Positions 1-11,220 of a stretch of DNA of 64,000 nt are shown here, piece after piece. The notes beneath the pieces were generated by a model that was not told the DNA's origin, did not search any database, and worked only from the letters and a program-made list of their open reading frames with translations. A program made the position numbers and the translations under genes. Each line of letters begins with the position of its first letter. Position 1 is the first letter of the stretch. This stretch comes from Blastomyces gilchristii SLH14081 (Eukaryota > Ascomycota > Eurotiomycetes > Onygenales > Ajellomycetaceae), in NCBI RefSeq assembly GCF_000003855.2, contig NW_003101659.1:27475-91474 (forward strand), in the 5' to 3' direction.

Positions 1-202
1 TAAAAATAATTTTAAAATTGAAGAAAGTGGAAAATCATGATCTCATTTGAAAAAATGTGATAAGAGTAGACAGTAAGTCTCACTGAGACAGTATGAAACT
101 ACTATCTAAATGTTAAAACTGTGTAATGAGATCAGTCGAATTGGTAATGAGACTATCAAAAAATCTGATCCTGGTCTCAGACACGGTCACACGGTCAGTC
201 TA
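1..202 (+). mobile_element. hAT-like MITE copy 1 (left-truncated by window edge)
   Basis: Bases 1-202 repeat, in the same orientation and with about 85-90% identity by eye, the right half of the complete element at 3111-3616. It ends in the same terminal sequence (CAGTCTA). Its other end lies outside the window. It is non-coding, AT-rich and CpG-poor. Confidence 0.75.
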
Positions 203-3102
203 GACACTATTAACCACACGGATTCAACAGTATGTAGTCTTCAAGTGTTCATCATTCTACCTGTTGTATGAATTGCATCCGCACATCTCAGAGAATACTT
301 TGAAAAAGATAGAAAAGAGAACAGCAGTTGCAGATACAACAGTTACAGACACAGAATCAAGATTGAAAGAGATCAGTCATACACATGCAAAAGCTAACAA
401 GTTACTCCTGAACTGAGCAATTCAATTGAAAAGAATACAAGACTCACTAGTTAAGAAATTAAGTCTTAAGATGAGAATGTGAATTCTCATACATAATGAG
501 AGTTCTGAGAAGTTTCAATCTAGATGATTTAAATTATATAAAATACTTAAATCACATTCTCTGAAAATATATACATTGAAAGAATCAGAGAGATAAGTCT
601 TATACAACTTAATAAATGATTTATAACTTATAAAAGTAAAGATATAAGATCTGAGTGAATTATAATCATTCACAGCACTATTATCATTATTGAAAAAGAA
701 GAAGCTTACAATTGAAAAGTCTTACAAAGTAAGAGAAATTATAGACACTTACAAATCAGATGATCTCACTTATTTCAATCTTTTCATAATTATAAGAAAA
801 GAATGAAAAGTAATAAAGAAATCAGATAAATATTACACTTTAATAAGTGATAAGACTGTAGCTAATCATATGATAATATGTCACAGATAGTAGACACAAC
901 ACAGTAAAGAGCAGTCTCAAAGCAGCAGACTTGTATATGAGTCAGATTATAGAAGAAAAAGAGATTCAGAGTTAAATTCAACTATTTACATCAGTTCAAT
1001 TGTGAAGATTACAGAGAATGAATCATCTGAAACATTCACAGATATATAAGATTAAGTTATCTCAATCTCTGAGAACACTTAGAGATTAGATGAGATTAGT
1101 TTCAATAAGTCATTCACTATAGTGATCTAAGCAGGTGAAGAGAGATAGTATAATACATGAGACAGAATCACAAAAGATAGAAGCTGCTGAATCTAGTCAC
1201 TGAATGCTGTATTATATAGAGATTGTGTAAGAGTAGTGACTAGCAGACAAAGAAAAAGTGTAAGAAAAGAAAAGAGAATAACTTAAGAGATAATGAATCA
1301 ATTATCAACTGTAAGAATCAGCTACAAAAGACAAATATTATTATATATCTCATTCATTTTCATATACTACATATTTAATCTATTTCTAACATCACATCAT
1401 CTGAAAAATGTCAAAAACAAAGAAAATCTTAAAACTCAAGATCTGCAAGAGATTTAAGAACTGTAAGTCACTCTTATAATAATATCACATATATCTTCAA
1501 TTTCTCTATCACTCTGCATACAACATTAATGTCATTTATCACAAGATTGACTGAAATATCAATATAGAAATGTATACATATACACATAGAAAAATTAAAG
1601 AAGAGTACAGAACTCACAGAATCAGAAGCTAAGATAGAAAGAATGAAGACAGAAGAAATAAAAGAAGAAGAAGACACAGAATCAGATAAATGACAGTGAG
1701 AGTCACTCAGAGCTGAATACTTATAACTCAGTGTATATATAATCTTCTCTGCAGAGAAGGAAGAGAAAGCAATAAAAGAAGCTTAAGAGTGAGAGAAAGT
1801 AGTCTCAGCAGTATTACTATCTTTGATTAAAATGACCTCTGACATTAGAGTAACTAAGAACTATTATTAGTATATAAAAACTGTAAAAGCAGGAATAATA
1901 ATTACTGAATGAATACTCACTGATCTTAGAATTATATATACAATTACAACATGCACAAGGCTTCTCAGAAAGAGAGAGAGAAATACAGAGAAATATAGAA
2001 AGCAGAATACAGTATATGAATAACTCATTTTTACAATAACATTTTAGACAAGATATATAAGTCTTATATCTATAAGTGTAAAAGAGTACAATATTCATAT
2101 TTCTGTTTCTGAAAACATGAATATCTTTTATCTGCATCACAAAGTCAGATAACAGATATCAGAGAATAGACTGATATAAATCTATTATTCTGAAGAAATT
2201 TATCAGAGTAGATATTTTTATAATATTGAACTTTACAGTTGTAAAAAGTTTCTTAATATCTGTGAATATCATAATTTCATATATAACAAAACTCATAATA
2301 ATTTTCTCTAAGAATAGAAAAATCAGTATTAGAAAGAAAAGATGGAAAAGAAAAAGACTTACAATCTTAACACTATTAAAGAGAGAGATGATTCTCTGAT
2401 ATAAATAAACAATTACTTTATTATAAATATTTAAAATGAATATAATAATCAGTATTCACAATCAAGGTTTAGATAGTTATATTATACACTGTCTTTATAT
2501 AATAAATTGTTCTAGAGATTAGTAAGAAGAGTAGAAGTGTATACACTGAGAAATATGATTCACTGAGTCTACATAACATTTTCTTGAAATAGGAAGAGCT
2601 AGTAACAAAGGCAGTAGTGAGAGTAGAAGTAGCAGAAGTAGAGATTGCAGAAACAGAGATAGCAGAAGTGAGAGAATCAGACACAGAGATAGATGTAAGA
2701 GATTGAGAGAGAGTAGCAGAGAAAGAAACAGAGAGAGTAGAAAGAGATATAAAAGACTCAGCTATATATAATACAGACAATTTCTTTATTATTATATTCT
2801 TCAAGTTTTCAATCAATGATTTAATATTAAGATGTTCACTATTATCAGTGAACATAGATCTGTTAACATGTAAAGATTCTATGTGAATAAAAACAAATAT
2901 CAGTATCTGTATTTATATAAAATCATGTCAGAAAACATGATCAGAAGCTCACTAAGAAGAAAAATAGTTAAGAGTGTATAAAAAGATAAAGAAGATATAT
3001 TATTCATAATAATATATTCTGATAATTATTAGAAGATAAACAAGTTCTGATTATATTTCATAACACATTACACTTACTACTAATAAACTGCCTGATATAA
3101 GC
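203..3102. other. AT-rich degenerate repeat DNA, no gene recognised
   Basis: About 2.9 kb of AT-rich DNA almost without CpG or CpC. Open frames are short and low-complexity; the serine-rich minus-strand frame at 2469-2855 is the shadow of a purine-rich tract (2590-2760, GAR/AGAG-like) on the plus strand. This is probably mutated transposon remains, but no domain could be read. Confidence 0.6.
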
Positions 3103-3110
3103 ACTATAAT

Positions 3111-3616
3111 TAGACTGGCTGCTGAGATTATGAATTTCATGTTTGATCTCATTTAATCTGATCTCATACATTTCTTGACGTGAATCTCACTGAGACTGAC
3201 TATCAAAAAAACATGTAAAGTGACTATATATCAGATCTTAAAATGAAATCATGACTTGAAAAAAATGAGAAAGTGGTTTCATTTAATCTTATTTAGTCTC
3301 ATTCTTGACATAAAGTTACTATTTTTAGACATTTTAAGGTTTTTTTTAGACTATTTTTAATTTTTTAAAAAGTAACACTTTTTGATAACACTCAAATGAG
3401 ATTTAAAGTCATTTAAAGCAATAAAAATAATTTAAATTGAGAAGTGAAAATCATGATCTCATTTGAAAAATGTAATAAGAGTAGACAGTAAGTCTCACTG
3501 AAACAGTATGAGACTACTATCTAATGTTAAAACCATGTAATGAGATCAGTTGAATTGATAATGAGACTATTAAAAAATCTGGTTCTGATCTCAGACACGG
3601 TCACACAGTCAGTCTA
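3111..3616 (+). mobile_element. Complete hAT-like MITE (506 bp) with 8-bp target-site duplication
   Basis: The element starts TAGACTGGCTG and ends CAGTCAGTCTA, so it has short terminal inverted repeats with one mismatch in the first 11 bases. It is flanked on both sides by the perfect 8-bp direct repeat ACTATAAT (3103-3110 and 3617-3624). An 8-bp duplication is the hallmark of hAT transposition. It has no coding capacity and is therefore non-autonomous. Related copies are at 1-202 (same orientation) and at 4122-4375 plus 11073-11220 (inverted and interrupted). Confidence 0.85.
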
Positions 3617-4121
3617 ACTATAATGACACTTGTTATAAGAACAGAGAGTCATTGTCAGAAACACATACAATGTAACAAATAAACAGATAGAAAGAGTTAA
3701 ATAGAAAAAGAAGTAGAAATCTTGAATAAGATGATAATATTCAATGATGATAATAATGAAGAAGATGATTAAAGAATGAAAAAAGTTAGTAAATGAATAA
3801 TATAATATAGTGAAAGTTTCTTTATAAGAGTGTACACAGAATACTAGCTGAATCAGAGATAGACTATACTATTATAAACACTAGTAACATACTAATTCAC
3901 ATGAAGTTAGAGTATATATTATGATCACATGAGTGTGACTGAATCTGATGAGAGAGAATGTGATTCAGAAGAATATATAATTATCAGATAATAATACAGT
4001 CACTTTTAAACTTGCTTATAAATGTAAAGAAGTCATAGCAGCCACTAATTAATTTAGTATACAGTATATAAGAAGCCGGCGTACGCCTGTAATTATACGC
4101 TGGCTTAAGTAATCTTTGAAT

Positions 4122-4375
4122 CATACTGTCTCAGTGAGACTTACTATCTACTCTTATTACATTTTTCAAATAAAATCATAATTTTCACTTCTTAATTTAA
4201 ATTATTTTTATTGCTTTAAATGACTTTAAATCTCATTTAAGTGTTATCAAAAAGCATTGCTTTTTAAAAAATTAAAAATAGTCTAAAAAAACCTTAAAAT
4301 GTTTAAAAGTAGTAACTTTATGCTAAGAATAAGACTAAATAAGACTAAATAAAACTACTTTCTTAATTTTTATAA
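4122..4375 (-). mobile_element. hAT-like MITE copy 3, left part (interrupted copy)
   Basis: This is the reverse complement of about 3260-3500 of the complete copy. Similarity stops at 4375, where a TIR element is inserted, and resumes at 11073. The left end is truncated near 4122, because the expected terminal repeat is absent from 4000-4121. Confidence 0.8.
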
Positions 4376-4510
4376 GAGTCTGTTGAGTGCGTCTGTACTT
4401 TTTGAACACAATAGTGAATCTCATTAAAAATAGTGTATTTATCAATTATTAGTAGCAAGTCAGTGTTGTGTTATTACACTATTTCATCTTACTCTCTTTT
4501 CTGAGATGAA

Positions 4511-4593
4511 GAAAGAAAGCTTATAAAAACACATTCTTTTTAAACAGAGTTCAGAGTCAGTTTAAAAAGAACATGTTTTTATAAGCTTTCTTC
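4511..4593. repeat. Long hairpin inside the TIR element
   Basis: Two arms of about 34 bases (4511-4545 and 4560-4593) are near-perfect reverse complements, each containing AAAGCTTATAAAAAC, around a loop of about 14 bases. It could be a foldback core of the MITE or a separate small insertion. Confidence 0.75.
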
Positions 4594-4851
4594 TAATCAA
4601 TATTAGTTAACTATCTTTACTATGAATACTATTCTACACTATTCTACACTATATTGCCTCGAAAAGTGTTATTCTACACTATCACACACTGTTGAAGTTA
4701 AATACTGCTTATTTATAAGATCTTGATAAGAGATATAAGTACAGTTACTTAATTCACTGAATATCTGATTATTTTCATCTGTACTTTGTAAAAAGCAGCT
4801 GTATTATTAGTACAGACACTCTGCTTATCAAACAGTTATAATATTGAGACT

Positions 4852-5184
4852 TGTAAGAGGCCTACGCCGAATAGATCGGCATTAAGATATAGATCTTATA
4901 TAACAAAAGATAAAAATGTTAAAGAAGGAAGAAAAGAGAAAGTGCGAGAATCAGTGATTGAGGTGGATATTTATACATGTATGTGATGGAGCTTCGGGGC
5001 AGAAGAATATACACGCGTTCATAGCAGCTGAGGATCAGTGATTGAGAATGGCTGAGAATCAGAGTGTACATGTTCATAGCGGCTGAGGATCAGTGATTGA
5101 GAATGACTGAGAATCAAAGTGTATGTGAAATCTGTGAAGTGTAACAGAATAGTCTATATGATTGATCAGATACAGCTCATCACA
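4852..5184 (-). repeat. 3' LTR of the gypsy element
   Basis: This is the downstream LTR in element orientation. It matches 10667-10999 over its full length with only transition-type differences noticed. From about base 165 inward almost every CpG of the other copy is TpG or CpA here. The purine-rich minus-strand stretch next to 5185 is a plausible polypurine tract. Confidence 0.9.
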
Positions 5185-8135
5185 TTAGTCTCTTCTTTTC
5201 AGAAGCAGTTTCTATCAGTCAAGAACTGCTGTTTCAGATAATACAGAACTCAGAGTTCAGATCAGTTGATTGTAGCTGACTTATTTCATAAGATATTATC
5301 AGTCATGACTGTGTGATCTCTTATCAAGAATTTCTTTAATCTCTTACTCAAGTTCATTATCTTCTTCTATGATTTCTGGCAGTTGTCAGTCAGAAGTCAG
5401 TTAAGAAGAGAACAGATCAGTGACAGTGCAGCAGAGCAAGCTTGTGTGAAATACATTATAAATCTCTGATGATGTGTCAAGATAATAGTTGTGACTACTT
5501 AGAACTTCTATTACTTTATCTCTGATATGACAGTAATCTAGTGTACAGAATGAACATGTGATTTGTATATTCTTAAGATTCAATCATATCAGATCTTCTA
5601 TCTTATATTGTTCAGTGAGATCTCAGTGAATATTGATTTAATTCTCTTAATCTTGTTTCACAGTTGTTATAAAGGCCTCTGCTCAATCACAGGTATCTCA
5701 GAGCTTCATTACTATATTATCAGTGATCTGAATCAGACTGTGAGAGTTCAGTGTGAACTGTGTGATCTCTAGAAGATTCAACACTTTTATATGATATTCA
5801 TATGTAAGAAAGAATGAGCTTATATCTGTTGAAACAGTATCTTAATCATTGATAGCAATCTCTGTGTGTAGAAGAAGATCATGTCAATCATCTTGTAAGT
5901 AATTACAGAACTTACAAAGATAATTCTTTATGATCTGAATTATCTGTTCTAATGCATCATCAGTCTCAGAGTGATAGACAGTTGATGAATAGTGTGTAAT
6001 CTTGAGAACTTGACAGATTCTAGTTCAGAGAGTATTCATGAATTAATAGCCTCAATTCAATACTATGAATCTCAGCAATTCATACATCTGATAGAATGAG
6101 CTCTGTAGAAAGACTTCAGTAACTTGTTCAGTATTCATCTTATTACAAGATTTCAATATTACATCTTTGCTCAATCAATTCACAATAATCAGAATGTTTC
6201 TACAACTCTTACTCTTAGATAGATTGATAGTGAAGTCAATTATCACATCTTATCAGATTCTATCAGAAATATTAAGTGATTTCAGTAGATCTTTTCTACA
6301 GTTCTTTTATAAGATAATGAAAGAACAGTGATTGCAGTTTCAGATAAAGTGTCTGATACTGTTAAATATCTCAGATTAATAGAATTCTTAGAAGACTATT
6401 CTATACAGTTGTTTACAGTCTGAATAATCAGTCATACATAAATCATGTATCTCTTGCATTATTCAGGTGTGTAAGAGTTCAGAGTGAGAGACTCAGTATC
6501 ATTCACAGAATCATAGAGCATTATTATTATCAATTGAATATTCTGAGATGTCAGTTCTTACTTATAATTCTGAGAGAAATCAGAATACTTCTTGTCATAC
6601 TGCTTCAGTGAGTGCTTGAAGAAGTTCATTGATTTAAGCTACTATATGCTATAGCTCATCTAATGTAGATTCAGAAGAAGTTGAGATATCAGTGACAGTT
6701 CTAATCAGAGAAGCATGTATAGTGTTATGAGCTGTTTCATCTTGATTAACTAGTATCTTCAGATCTAAGAGTCAGTGCTCTTGATTTATTCAGTGAGTAT
6801 CTGTTACATCAGATAATATATCTTACTCTCATTGTGAGAGAGCATCTATCATTGAGTTCTGACTGTCAGAATAATAGTGTATTGTAAAATGAAAGCAGTT
6901 TAAGAACTCAGACTATCATATCTATTATTCAGTAAGTTTATGAGTAGTTATAAAGTATTTGAGATTCTTATGATCTGTGACTATCTCAAACTCAGAGATA
7001 CTTCAGAGTTCAGAGTCTCATTCTTCTAAACAGTGTATAATTATGAGAAGTTTCTTATCATAGATCTCATAATTGCATTCAGTGAGACTCAGTTTCTTAG
7101 ATATGAAGATATATAGTTATAGAATATCTTCATCATCATATTACAATATTACTTCTTCTATTACATAGTCAGAGAAATCAGCTTCAATAACTATCTTATA
7201 ATCAGAATCAAAGATTATTAGCAGAGAAGTATTAATAAATATCTTCTTTATCTATATAAATGCAGGTTCAGTGTCTGCTGATTATTGAAATACTGAGTCT
7301 TTCTTAGTAAGATCTGTAAGTGATCTTGTGATATCTGAGAAGTTTTATATAAATCACTGATAGAAGTTAGTAAATCTGATGAAGCTTTGTACATTTTTCA
7401 CAGTACACAGAGCTTCTTATTTAAGAATGGCAGAGACTTTCTCAGAATTCATTCAAATCCTCTTATCAGCTTCTATAATAAAACTCAGATACTTAGTACT
7501 CTTGACTTTAAAATTATACTTATCAATATCTATCAGTAGTTCTGCTTCTCATAGTCATTGTAATATCTTTTGTATATGTTCTTGATATTCTTTTCTGAAT
7601 TTATCAGTGAAGATGAGAATGTTATCTAGATAAGCAGATACAAACTTATTAAGAAAATCTTGAAGTGCTCAGTTGATATACTTCTGAAATGTACTGAGAA
7701 TGTTAGCCAGTTCAAAGAGTGTAACTATTCATTCAAAGAGGTTATAATATGTTTAAAATGCTGTAAGCTATTCATCTTCTTCAGTGATATAAATCTTATG
7801 AAACACAGTAATAATATCTAGTTTTATAAATCATTGAGCTTATCTGATCTGTGCTAGGGTTTCATTGATAAGAGATAAGAGATATCAATCTTTCTTTGTT
7901 AATCTGTTCAGATCTCAGTAGTTCATGCAGAATCAGAGTTCTTCATCTGATTTCTTTGCAAAGAGAATAGAGACTGTGACAGAAGAGTTACTAATATGTA
8001 TAAATTCTTTATTCAACAGATTATTGAGTGTCTTTTAAAGAAGAAGAAGTTCATTTCAGAATATATTATAAAGAGAATCTTATAATAATTCAGAGTTCTT
8101 ATCATTCTTTTTCTCTAACTTAATACTGTGATTCA

Positions 8136-8147
8136 CTTCAGAACCTT

Positions 8148-8150
<3 letters not shown>
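8136..8150 (+). repeat. Left target-site duplication of the SINE (15 bp)
   Basis: CTTCAGAACCTTGTA is repeated exactly at 8532-8546, bracketing the SINE. Confidence 0.95.
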
Positions 8151-8180
<30 letters not shown>

Positions 8181-8455
8181 TTTCATTATACTCATATGCA
8201 AGCGAAGCTTATGATGAGTTCTTGCGTGATGTTAAATACAGGTCAAGTGTTGATTATACAGGAGGAAATACAGGTGTTGAGACCACGCCAAGATAACAAG
8301 AACATAGGAAAATACAAAGAAGTGACAATTAAATACATGTGATAATAACTTCTCAGCCCAGGAACATAGAGCAATTCATTGAAGCGATTTGTACACCTCT
8401 GTATTTATTAGAAACCTGAGGTGCTTGAGTTCCAGATTTAATGTATCCCCTGCGG

Positions 8456-8464
8456 GTTTCGAAC
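8456..8464 (-). promoter_or_regulatory. SINE internal pol III B box
   Basis: GTTCGAAAC on the minus strand fits the consensus GWTCRANNC. It lies about 50 bases downstream of the A box at 8515-8525, the spacing of a tRNA-type internal promoter. Confidence 0.8.
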
Positions 8465-8514
8465 CCACGCGCCTTGGTTTCCCACGCCAAGGTGCTACCG
8501 GGTGGCCGCATTAA

Positions 8515-8525
8515 CCATTCGGCCA
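8515..8525 (-). promoter_or_regulatory. SINE internal pol III A box
   Basis: TGGCCGAATGG on the minus strand fits TRGYNNARNNG. Confidence 0.8.
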
Positions 8526-8531
8526 CCGGGG

Positions 8532-8546
8532 CTTCAGAACCTTGTA
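8532..8546 (+). repeat. Right target-site duplication of the SINE (15 bp)
   Basis: Exact repeat of 8136-8150. Confidence 0.95.
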
Positions 8547-10666
8547 AGAAAGATATGTTTGTAATATTATCTTATCAGAAGATAGCTAGATATTCATGAT
8601 ATTATTAAGAGAGTTTCATACAAGAATCTGTTATTATAATATAAGATAACTTTTCTAGAGTCTTTTTAATATCAGTCAGACTGATGAAATAGATTAATAT
8701 ATAATCTTACTATCAGTGACTCTGTCAGTGATTTTAATAATGACTTCTTTTTCAGAGTATTTTATACATGTTGACAGAGATCTGTGTCAGATTCATAGTC
8801 TTATAAATGTTATCTTTGTGAACTCTATCATTATTAGAGAATATCAAGCTTCTGTTTTAAGTATTCAATAAGATGTTTTATTCAGATAGTCAGATAAGTT
8901 CTAACATAAGATTATAATCAAGATTATCAACTTTATATGTATAGACATCTTCATATTGATGTTCTTCTACATCTATGATTAACTTCATTATATAATGAAT
9001 ACAAATGTCTTTTAAATCATCAAATTCTATAAGAAGTCAGAGTTTTAATAGAGAAATATACTGAAGATTATAATATCTTACAACTGAAGATTTTATCATT
9101 GCATAGTAGCATAGATTACTGTCTATTATAATCTTCATATTATACATGTTATTAATCACAGTAGATATAAGAATTATATTCATTATTATCTTCTCTTCAA
9201 ATTATTGTCATCTGACCTCTTCAAGCTTCTATTTGCAAATTTGAACAGAAGTTAATCTTTTCTCTGTTTCATTGAGAGATTCTTATAGTTATTCTCTGAA
9301 TCTTTCTCTAATGCAACATGATTGATATGAACAGACACTGATTCATTCTTCAAATGAGAAGACACTGATCTTTCTCTTAAATATGAAGATACATAGATTA
9401 ATCAGCAGTTGAAAGTAATGTGTTCTAATCAGTTACAGTTGATGCATACTTTACATTGATGTTAATTAACAACTTCTTCAGAAGTGATCTCAGAGACTTG
9501 AAAGCCTGTTCAGACAGCAGAGATTCTTACTTATATATAGATATTCAAGTCTACTCAATTCATAATATCTGTATTATTATTATTTCTCAGTGCAGGTGTA
9601 TAAGTTACTGAGATGTAATATCTTCTATCACTGTTCTGTATATTCTTGAGCTTGATAAGACAGTTATTCATTATTCAGAGCTGTGTGTAGAAGCCTTCAT
9701 AAGTTAAGTCTTTGTCTATACTTATAAAAGTCTGTAAGAGTTCAAAAGTCAATATCTTCTTAAGCATGCTAATCTTCATTCAATTCTCTTAAGACTGACT
9801 ATCTGCTTCTAGAATCTTGATATTGAAGTCAGAAATGAATGTTGTAAGAGAAGTATTTCTCTGTCAGATACTCTGTAATTAATCTAATACTTTCTATTGT
9901 ATAACAGTGTCTTGAAACAGAATATCAAGATATTTTATAATATTATCAGATGTTCACAACACTGATTTACATGCTTTTATTCATGAATGAAACTTCTGTT
10001 TCATGCAATTCTTCAATCATTTATTGATATATCAATCTTGATTAATTAATGAACTGATGAAATCTTTATCTACACTCAGTTTCACAAGCATTTTCATTCT
10101 CTATGATAAGTAGAGAGTGAGATCAGAAGTATTGAAATATGTGAGAGTATTTAAGTGTTCTTTCAGTGCTTTTATATTCAATTCTGTAGATGCTGAAATT
10201 GCATGAGTTTCTTATTATAATAATTATTGAATCTCTTCATATTAATATTATTGAGTTACATGCATATCAGCTATTTATTACTATTGTAGTTTTAATATTA
10301 CTTAAAGTCACTGTGATACTGTGTCTATACTCATGTTCAAGAGTTTCATATTATTATTAGACATGATTATGTCAATTATCAGATATATAATTGTATAAAT
10401 ATCTTATATATCTGAGTGTCAGAACTCTCAGATCTTTCACTAACATTCTCTTATAAGATTTTATTCTCTTTATAAGATCTTATTGCAGGGTCAGAGTGAC
10501 TGATAAGTAAGCTTCTATCTAAGAACTCAGTGCCTGCTTATCTGTGTTTTCTCTTTCTTATGTGTTATTATATGTTCAGATATCTCTTAATGAATAATTG
10601 TTTCTGATAAGAAGATGATGCATGAATAATTGTTTTCTAATAAGAAGATAATCAATATTTTTATAG

Positions 10667-10999
10667 TGTAAGAGGTCTACACTGAATAGATTGGCATTAA
10701 GATATAGGTCTTATATAGCAAAAGATAAAAATGTTAAAGAAGGAAGGAAAGAGAAAGTGTGAGAATCAGTGATTGAGGTGAATATTTATACATGTATGTG
10801 ATGGAGCTTCGGGGTGGAAGAATATACATGTGTTTGTAGCGGCCGAGGATCGGCGATTGAGAATGGCTGAGAATCAGAGTGTACGCGTTCATGGCGGCTG
10901 AGGATCGGCGATCGAGAATGGCCGAGGATCGGAGCGTACGTGGAATCTGTGGAGTGTAACGGAATAGTCTATATGATTGATCGGGCGCAGCCCGCCACA
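10667..10999 (-). repeat. 5' LTR of the gypsy element
   Basis: Upstream LTR in element orientation, beginning TGTGGCGGGCTG. Its outer half (about 10820-10999) keeps many CpGs that are lost in the other LTR, while its inner end is the more mutated of the two. Confidence 0.9.
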
Positions 11000-11072
11000 A
11001 GACTGTACTTTTTAAAAAAAGTAGAGATTCATATAAAAAGAATGAGTATACACAGACGCACTGAACAGACTC

Positions 11073-11220
11073 TAAGTCATAATCTTATTTTAAGATCTGA
11101 TATATAGTTACTTTGCATGTTTTTTTAATAATTAGTCTTAGTGAGATTCATGTTAAGAAATATATGAGATCAGATTAAATGAAATTAAATATGAAATTTA
11201 TAATCTCAGTAGTCAGTCTA
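11073..11220 (-). mobile_element. hAT-like MITE copy 3, right part
   Basis: This continues the interrupted copy begun at 4122. It ends with the terminal repeat AGTCAGTCTA at 11220, the inverted counterpart of 3111-3120. Together with 4122-4375 it restores a copy collinear with 3111-3500. Confidence 0.8.

Follow-up and report, generated by a model that had tools for sequence, protein, structure and literature searches.

The described system closest to the locus analysed here is AfuSINE2-1a of Aspergillus fumigatus, which is associated with the Tad1 LINEs I-4_AO / I-1_AF and whose 3' end resembles that of a Tad1-type LINE with endonuclease, reverse transcriptase (RT) and RNase H, as the 3' end of the Blastomyces SINE reported below resembles that of a probably Tad1-type LINE with RT, RNase H and a putative endonuclease. 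In the available portion of its description (PMC5063351), AfuSINE2-1a is also tRNA-related, resides in a filamentous ascomycete and carries a trinucleotide-repeat tail, features that the two SINEs have in common. Our search for literature on SINE retrotransposons of Onygenales turned up work on LTR elements only, a search on short interspersed elements in Blastomyces brought up work on transposons in speciation and on frogs, and no description of this SINE family for Blastomyces was found in the literature searched. Paracoccidioides and Blastomyces are related fungi. The Tad-type LINE RtPc5 / PbNLR1 of Paracoccidioides appears to be of the same endonuclease and RT type as the LINE described below, and the available part of its description mentions no SINE partner (PMC4427930). 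Blastomyces repeats themselves have been described as Gypsy, Copia and DNA elements, with a small share of Tad1 and a remainder left unclassified, and in the two genome papers, as far as available, the word SINE is absent from the main text (PMC4595289, PMC11540331).

Within the window analysed, a stretch of 64,000 nucleotides from Blastomyces gilchristii SLH14081, the presence of a 381-bp SINE at positions 8151-8531 was confirmed. The Dcp2 frame of the window is 100% identical, at 99% coverage, to a protein recorded under Blastomyces dermatitidis; next comes B. percursus at 90%. The element is read on the minus strand, with its head at 8531 and its tail at 8151, and is flanked by two copies of a target-site duplication, CTTCAGAACCTTGTA, at 8136-8150 (left, tail side) and 8532-8546 (right, head side), which are identical at 15 of 15 positions and occur as a single copy at uninserted relatives. 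A first-pass annotation had proposed these coordinates, the element length, the A and B boxes and the perfect 15-bp duplication, all of which were borne out. The tRNA-like head (8447-8531, minus strand, as are all parts that follow) contains TGGCCGAATGG at 8515-8525 and GGTTCGAAACC at 8455-8465, the RNA polymerase III A and B boxes, respectively. The A box is identical in 20 of 37 aligned near-full copies and the GTTCGAAACCC of the B box in all 37, of which 29 had been picked by an exact match containing GTTCGAAACCC. Next come a tRNA-unrelated body (8220-8446), which matched only SINE copies among the loci compared; a 3' stem-loop (8190-8219) with a 6-bp stem and an 18-nt loop; a ATAATNNAAG box (8180-8189) between stem-loop and tail; and an (AAT)n tail of 29 nt (8151-8179), ranging from 14 to 36 nt across 35 copies. 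Both the stem-loop geometry and the box are common to a LINE of the same genome. Short, non-coding and carrying the A and B boxes internally at its 5' end, the element has the layout of SINE2-type elements. In composition, the observed/expected CpG ratio is 0.85 for the SINE, compared with 0.12 and 0.36 for the left and right flanks, where CpC is also depleted (CC observed/expected 0.13 and 0.20, respectively). The earlier description of a GC-rich element in CpG-poor DNA therefore stands for the CpG contrast, whereas a GC content of 40% is rich only relative to flanks of 28-29%.

The genome assembly (74.8 Mb, 75 contigs) was searched for further copies. A DNA search yielded 40 scored matches (of 1,148 candidates) at 96-100% identity, the window SINE included, and pattern searches returned 625 matches to a 22-base box-B core (up to 2 mismatches), 761 to a 33-base stretch of the body and 961 to 36 bases of the 3' end (up to 3 mismatches each), counts that vary with the mismatches allowed and include fragments as well as whole copies. 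Reversed-pattern controls gave 0 matches for each of the three, and a single-copy element is excluded. Near-full copies for alignment comprised 8 from the DNA search and 29 from the exact box-B pattern, a choice that biases the sample of 37 to young copies. Their divergence from the per-column majority has a median of 2.6% (range 0.6-11.7%), with the window copy at 1.7%. At one site in the body, likely a former CpG, 20 copies carry TG, 14 carry CA and 3 carry CG, hinting at two source lineages; naming subfamilies was abandoned, as linked sites were too mixed. A further SINE copy, at about 12-344 of locus L031 and cut by the locus end, is just 80% like the window SINE and perhaps represents an older subfamily.

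Evidence for insertion was provided by the flanks of 41 matches in 38 loci; 39 of these matches have a testable 5' end. Of the 39, 35 lie between duplications with a score of 10 or more, compared with 1 of 312 mismatched-flank pairs, and all 35 are distinct from one another, so that the copies with different duplications anticipated for a mobile family were found, dispersed and numerous as in SINE2-type elements. Thirty of the 35 are 12-17 bp long; the other five are longer, include mismatches and may extend into the tail. The four remaining copies are the second copy in L031 (cut by the locus end), L010 (which is without the 3' part), and L018 and L019 (scores 8 and 9). Also, the uninserted sequence, joined across a single copy of the duplication, was matched at 153 genome places with up to 3 mismatches (reversed control, 0), and two loci, L023 and L027, run through the window insertion site with no SINE there, both carrying SINEs elsewhere in the same host family. 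Duplication mismatches average 0.50 in the 14 copies under 96% identity and 0.38 in the 21 others, a difference too small for them to serve as a clock. The bases favoured at the duplication edge were tallied; no insertion-site motif is claimed, since the way in which duplications were extended biases the preceding position. Flanks under 36% GC were observed at 36 of 38 SINE loci and in 12 of 20 background regions.

These observations bear on whether the locus might instead be a tRNA gene, either functional or recently inactivated, or a segmental duplicate. Its boxes are tRNA-like, and ARAGORN at a 50% relaxed threshold places a 'tRNA-Cys' call over the SINE head, together with two opposite-strand calls; at its normal threshold, however, no tRNA gene was called in the window. 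Over 8000-8700, none of five matches at E<=10 was a tRNA, one of them weakly resembling Y RNA, at 17.1 bits where the cut-off is 69, and in one scan RF00005 matched the real tRNA loci L076 and L082 and none of five SINE loci. Given also that copies are dispersed, with 35 distinct duplications, and that uninserted sites exist, the gene or duplicate interpretation is refuted and retains a practically negligible probability; a single-copy relic is ruled out by the scans and the multi-copy matches, and with it the functional tRNA gene that could have overturned the SINE assignment. The tRNA-derived SINE is accordingly the identity retained here. As to its ancestry, comparison with 12 tRNA calls from 20 loci (63 scored of 4,237 tRNA candidates) ranked an intron-bearing tRNA-Arg call first (alignment score 12.5), followed by tRNA-Ser (10.0), and the SINE heads resemble Arg, Ser and Leu tRNAs chiefly around the boxes.

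The SINE resides within an inactivated Ty3/Gypsy-type LTR element (4852-11012, minus strand), whose LTRs at 4852-5199 and 10667-11012 bracket it and are 86.5% identical over 348 columns, i.e. 13.5% differing. The host reverse transcriptase remnant (7501-8136, minus strand) is broken by many stops and resembles Ty3/Gypsy RT on reading of its frame; one open piece of 37 aa matches RVT_1 with an E-value of 0.0053 and 16.9 bits, short of the curated cut-off (29.6), and two other open pieces gave no family match. This agrees with the proposal that the SINE sits in a dead retrotransposon, while the accompanying claim of recent movement holds in relative terms only (1.7% from the majority for the window copy, against 13.5% between the host LTRs). 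Assignment of the host to the Gypsy family of the RT loci L041-L053 was rejected, there being no match of at least 250 bp. A separate repeat unit at 3105-3622, which has an inverted partner at 4121-4371 and recurs in part at 1-202 and 11074-11220, is 88-94% like stretches in several SINE loci and is perhaps a solo LTR.

The LINE with a matching 3' end that a SINE of this kind would call for was also found. Locus L069 carries two LINE copies in tandem and in the same orientation, with tails at about 2765-2798 and 6099-6131; RNase_H was detected in both and RVT_1 in the second, with no family match for one further piece. Both copies end in the same tail type as the SINE, and in the second the order of RT, RNase H and (AAT)n tail is that of Tad1-type LINEs. 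LINE 3' ends number about 2,027 in the genome at up to 3 mismatches. At one place on contig C1, an endonuclease match (1916645-1917193), an RT match (1914965-1915705) and a LINE tail (1912965-1913002) follow one another on the same strand over about 4.2 kb and may belong to one element, in the order that a Tad1-type LINE with an AP-type endonuclease ahead of its RT would show. We name the partner LINE Tad1-type from its domain order and from the available part of a report of 'non-LTR Tad1' sequences in Blastomyces (PMC4595289). Directly before the hairpin shared with the SINE, at about 6046-6068 of L069, lies a second, longer LINE hairpin, CCTGAGAACTAAAGTTCTCAGG, for which no clear SINE counterpart was found.

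Comparison of 3' ends revealed a design common to both families, as in SINE2-type elements and their partner LINEs, comprising a 6-bp stem around an 18-nt loop, followed by ATAATNNAAG and the (AAT)n tail. A typical SINE ends in actcat-18 nt-atgagt-ATAATGRAAG-(AAT)n and a typical LINE in agatgt-18 nt-acatct-ATAATTGAAG-(AAT)n. Among the loci sampled, a stem of six Watson-Crick pairs is complete in 33 of the 38 SINE ends and in 8 of the 10 LINE ends, as against 59 of 59,841 background positions; two more sequences with a ATAATNNAAGAATAAT box have no hairpin. Across 21 distinct 3' ends, 93.7% of cells pair; two of the six stem pairs are invariant, and in the other four both bases change between SINE and LINE. 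Covariation, at a score of 0.408, exceeds a shuffled mean of 0.143 (0 of 500 as high) and slid versions of the stem (at most 0.103). Two of five covariation measures stay within shuffling, namely pairs changed on both sides (reached by 152 of 500) and further pair types (375 of 500), and the cells are not independent events, because the changes reflect mainly one split between SINE and LINE. The typical loops are identical at 13 of 18 positions, with one change more in the window copy; a loop match of at least 13 occurs in 36 of 498,274 background 30-mers, and together with at least 5 stem pairs in 2 of 498,274, for a hairpin that was picked out after looking, with no prior prediction. Ignoring the hairpin, ungapped identity before the tail is 16 of 24, which 18 of 127,474 background 24-mers reach, some of them LINE ends themselves.

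The likeness between SINE and LINE spans just about 46 nt, and this bears on whether the SINE depends for its movement on another LINE, outside those sampled, the resemblance being convergence on an AT-rich tail. Such a partner is conceivable in that the LINE copies read are those that surfaced first and that, in the loci compared, the families match at the 3' end only. However, the two ends have stems and loops of equal length and the same box and tail unit, all in register, and so few background 30-mers (2 of 498,274) come near this match that we consider the alternative very unlikely. Instead, a tRNA-derived SINE mobilized by a co-resident LINE is very probably what the sequence features reflect, and the LINE described here is probably the helper. 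The interpretation first put forward for the locus is supported: the element is a SINE, its family has many copies with differing duplications, its LTR host is dead, and a LINE whose 3' end matches was identified. From what was observed directly (a family of copies with promoter motifs inside them and a tail, duplications distinct from one another, paralogous sites that lack the insertion, and a LINE of the same 3' design), a route of movement may be proposed. RNA polymerase III would transcribe the SINE by way of the A and B boxes inside it; the LINE reverse transcriptase would take the SINE RNA by its 3' end, through the hairpin, ATAATNNAAG box and AAT tail; and the LINE endonuclease would nick the DNA and prime copying there, leaving duplications mostly of 12-17 bp. 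The window copy lies in an old Gypsy element, and the SINE family is losing its C's to a C-to-T mutation of the host preferring CpG and CpC.

Transversions are untouched by C-to-T mutation. Between SINE pairs they amount to 0.26% per site (606 over 666 non-independent pairs), compared with 0.64-1.04% for LINE (four comparisons) and 0.51-0.72% for Gypsy (five comparisons), and this lower rate indicates that the sampled SINEs, in a sample biased to young copies, are younger. Relative to the majority, C-to-T changes in SINE copies reach 9.9% at CpG, 7.4% at CpC, 4.3% at CpA and 0.85% at CpT; T-to-C or A-to-G changes stand at 1.3%, some of them perhaps at positions where the mutated base has already become the majority, and transversions at 0.13%. 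In pair analyses of SINE, LINE and Gypsy the order of contexts is likewise CpG and CpC above CpA above CpT, with the exception of one six-pair LINE set in which CpG is 0. Expressed as -ln(1-f) per transversion rate, C-to-T change at CpC is 74 for SINE, 67-106 for LINE and 182-301 for Gypsy; at CpA, 26, 24-26 and 61-99; and at CpT, 6, 7-9 and 15-19, respectively, CpG sites in LINE and Gypsy being too scarce to give a reliable value. By these values, the SINE decays about like the LINE, and Gypsy faster.

Given its CpG ratio of 0.85 amid flanks at 0.12-0.36, the SINE might be thought shielded from C-to-T mutation by being shorter than a homology-dependent process needs, and the Gypsy values, well above those of the SINE at both CpC (182-301 against 74) and CpA (61-99 against 26), point the same way. 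Yet CpGs become fewer with divergence, from 12-16 per copy in the 12 least diverged of the 37 to 7-13 in the 12 most diverged, and LINE pairs of several kb show values (67-106 at CpC, 24-26 at CpA) about as in the SINE. Shielding by short length thus finds no support against the LINE, although Gypsy elements do decay faster, and we regard it as unlikely; the SINE retains its CpGs because it is young. The view that it keeps its own sequence amid CpG loss therefore stands as regards the CpGs kept, and fails as regards any exemption, diverged copies having fewer.

Preference for CpA, by which classical RIP is recognized, was not found. The repeats (window 1-8135 and 8547-10900; L041-L053; L069), of which the SINE flanks in the window are poor in CpC and CpG, show C-to-T change favouring CpG and CpC, unlike classical CpA RIP. 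In the available parts of the sources, RIP-like defences have a CpA preference in common (PMC12543289), one survey names CpA, CpT and CpG signatures, without 'CpC' (PMC4352252), and a Coccidioides review holds nothing on mutation context (PMC6141143). Taken together, a tentative reading, which we hold with somewhat less than even confidence, is that Blastomyces repeats owe their decay to a C-to-T mutator that favours CpG and CpC over CpA, largely spares CpT and is ungated by repeat length, a 381-bp SINE being hit about as hard per transversion as a several-kb LINE, and that alongside it exist a SINE and a LINE with a common 3' recognition hairpin conserved in shape, 4 of its 6 stem pairs having been exchanged.

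Set against known systems, of which AfuSINE2-1a, Foxy and MgSINE were compared by description only and from the available part of one source (PMC5063351), the Blastomyces SINE differs from AfuSINE2-1a in its tail repeat (AAT rather than ACT), in abundance (625-961 matches, compared with at least 4 copies), and in its 3' likeness to a LINE, which in AfuSINE2-1a is one of sequence (positions 210-335) and here consists of a 30-nt hairpin with both-sided stem changes, a box and a tail. Foxy of Fusarium oxysporum (ca. 160 copies) and the tRNA-derived, 472-bp MgSINE of Magnaporthe (ca. 100 copies) are likewise less numerous. In Blumeria graminis, by contrast, SINEs are abundant and mobile, accounting for about 38% of the roughly 21,000 elements annotated in each isolate in the available part of the source (PMC13124064), and with copies there far more numerous, abundance itself is not new for fungi. 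A young, dispersed SINE offers presence/absence markers for strains and a clock for AT-rich tracts, and the hairpin with exchanged pairs makes RNA-shape recognition in Tad-type LINEs testable by cross-species comparison. The Blastomyces SINE family, with its probable LINE, is real and of an already known type; it stands out by the base pairs exchanged in its hairpin and by the unusual context of its mutations.
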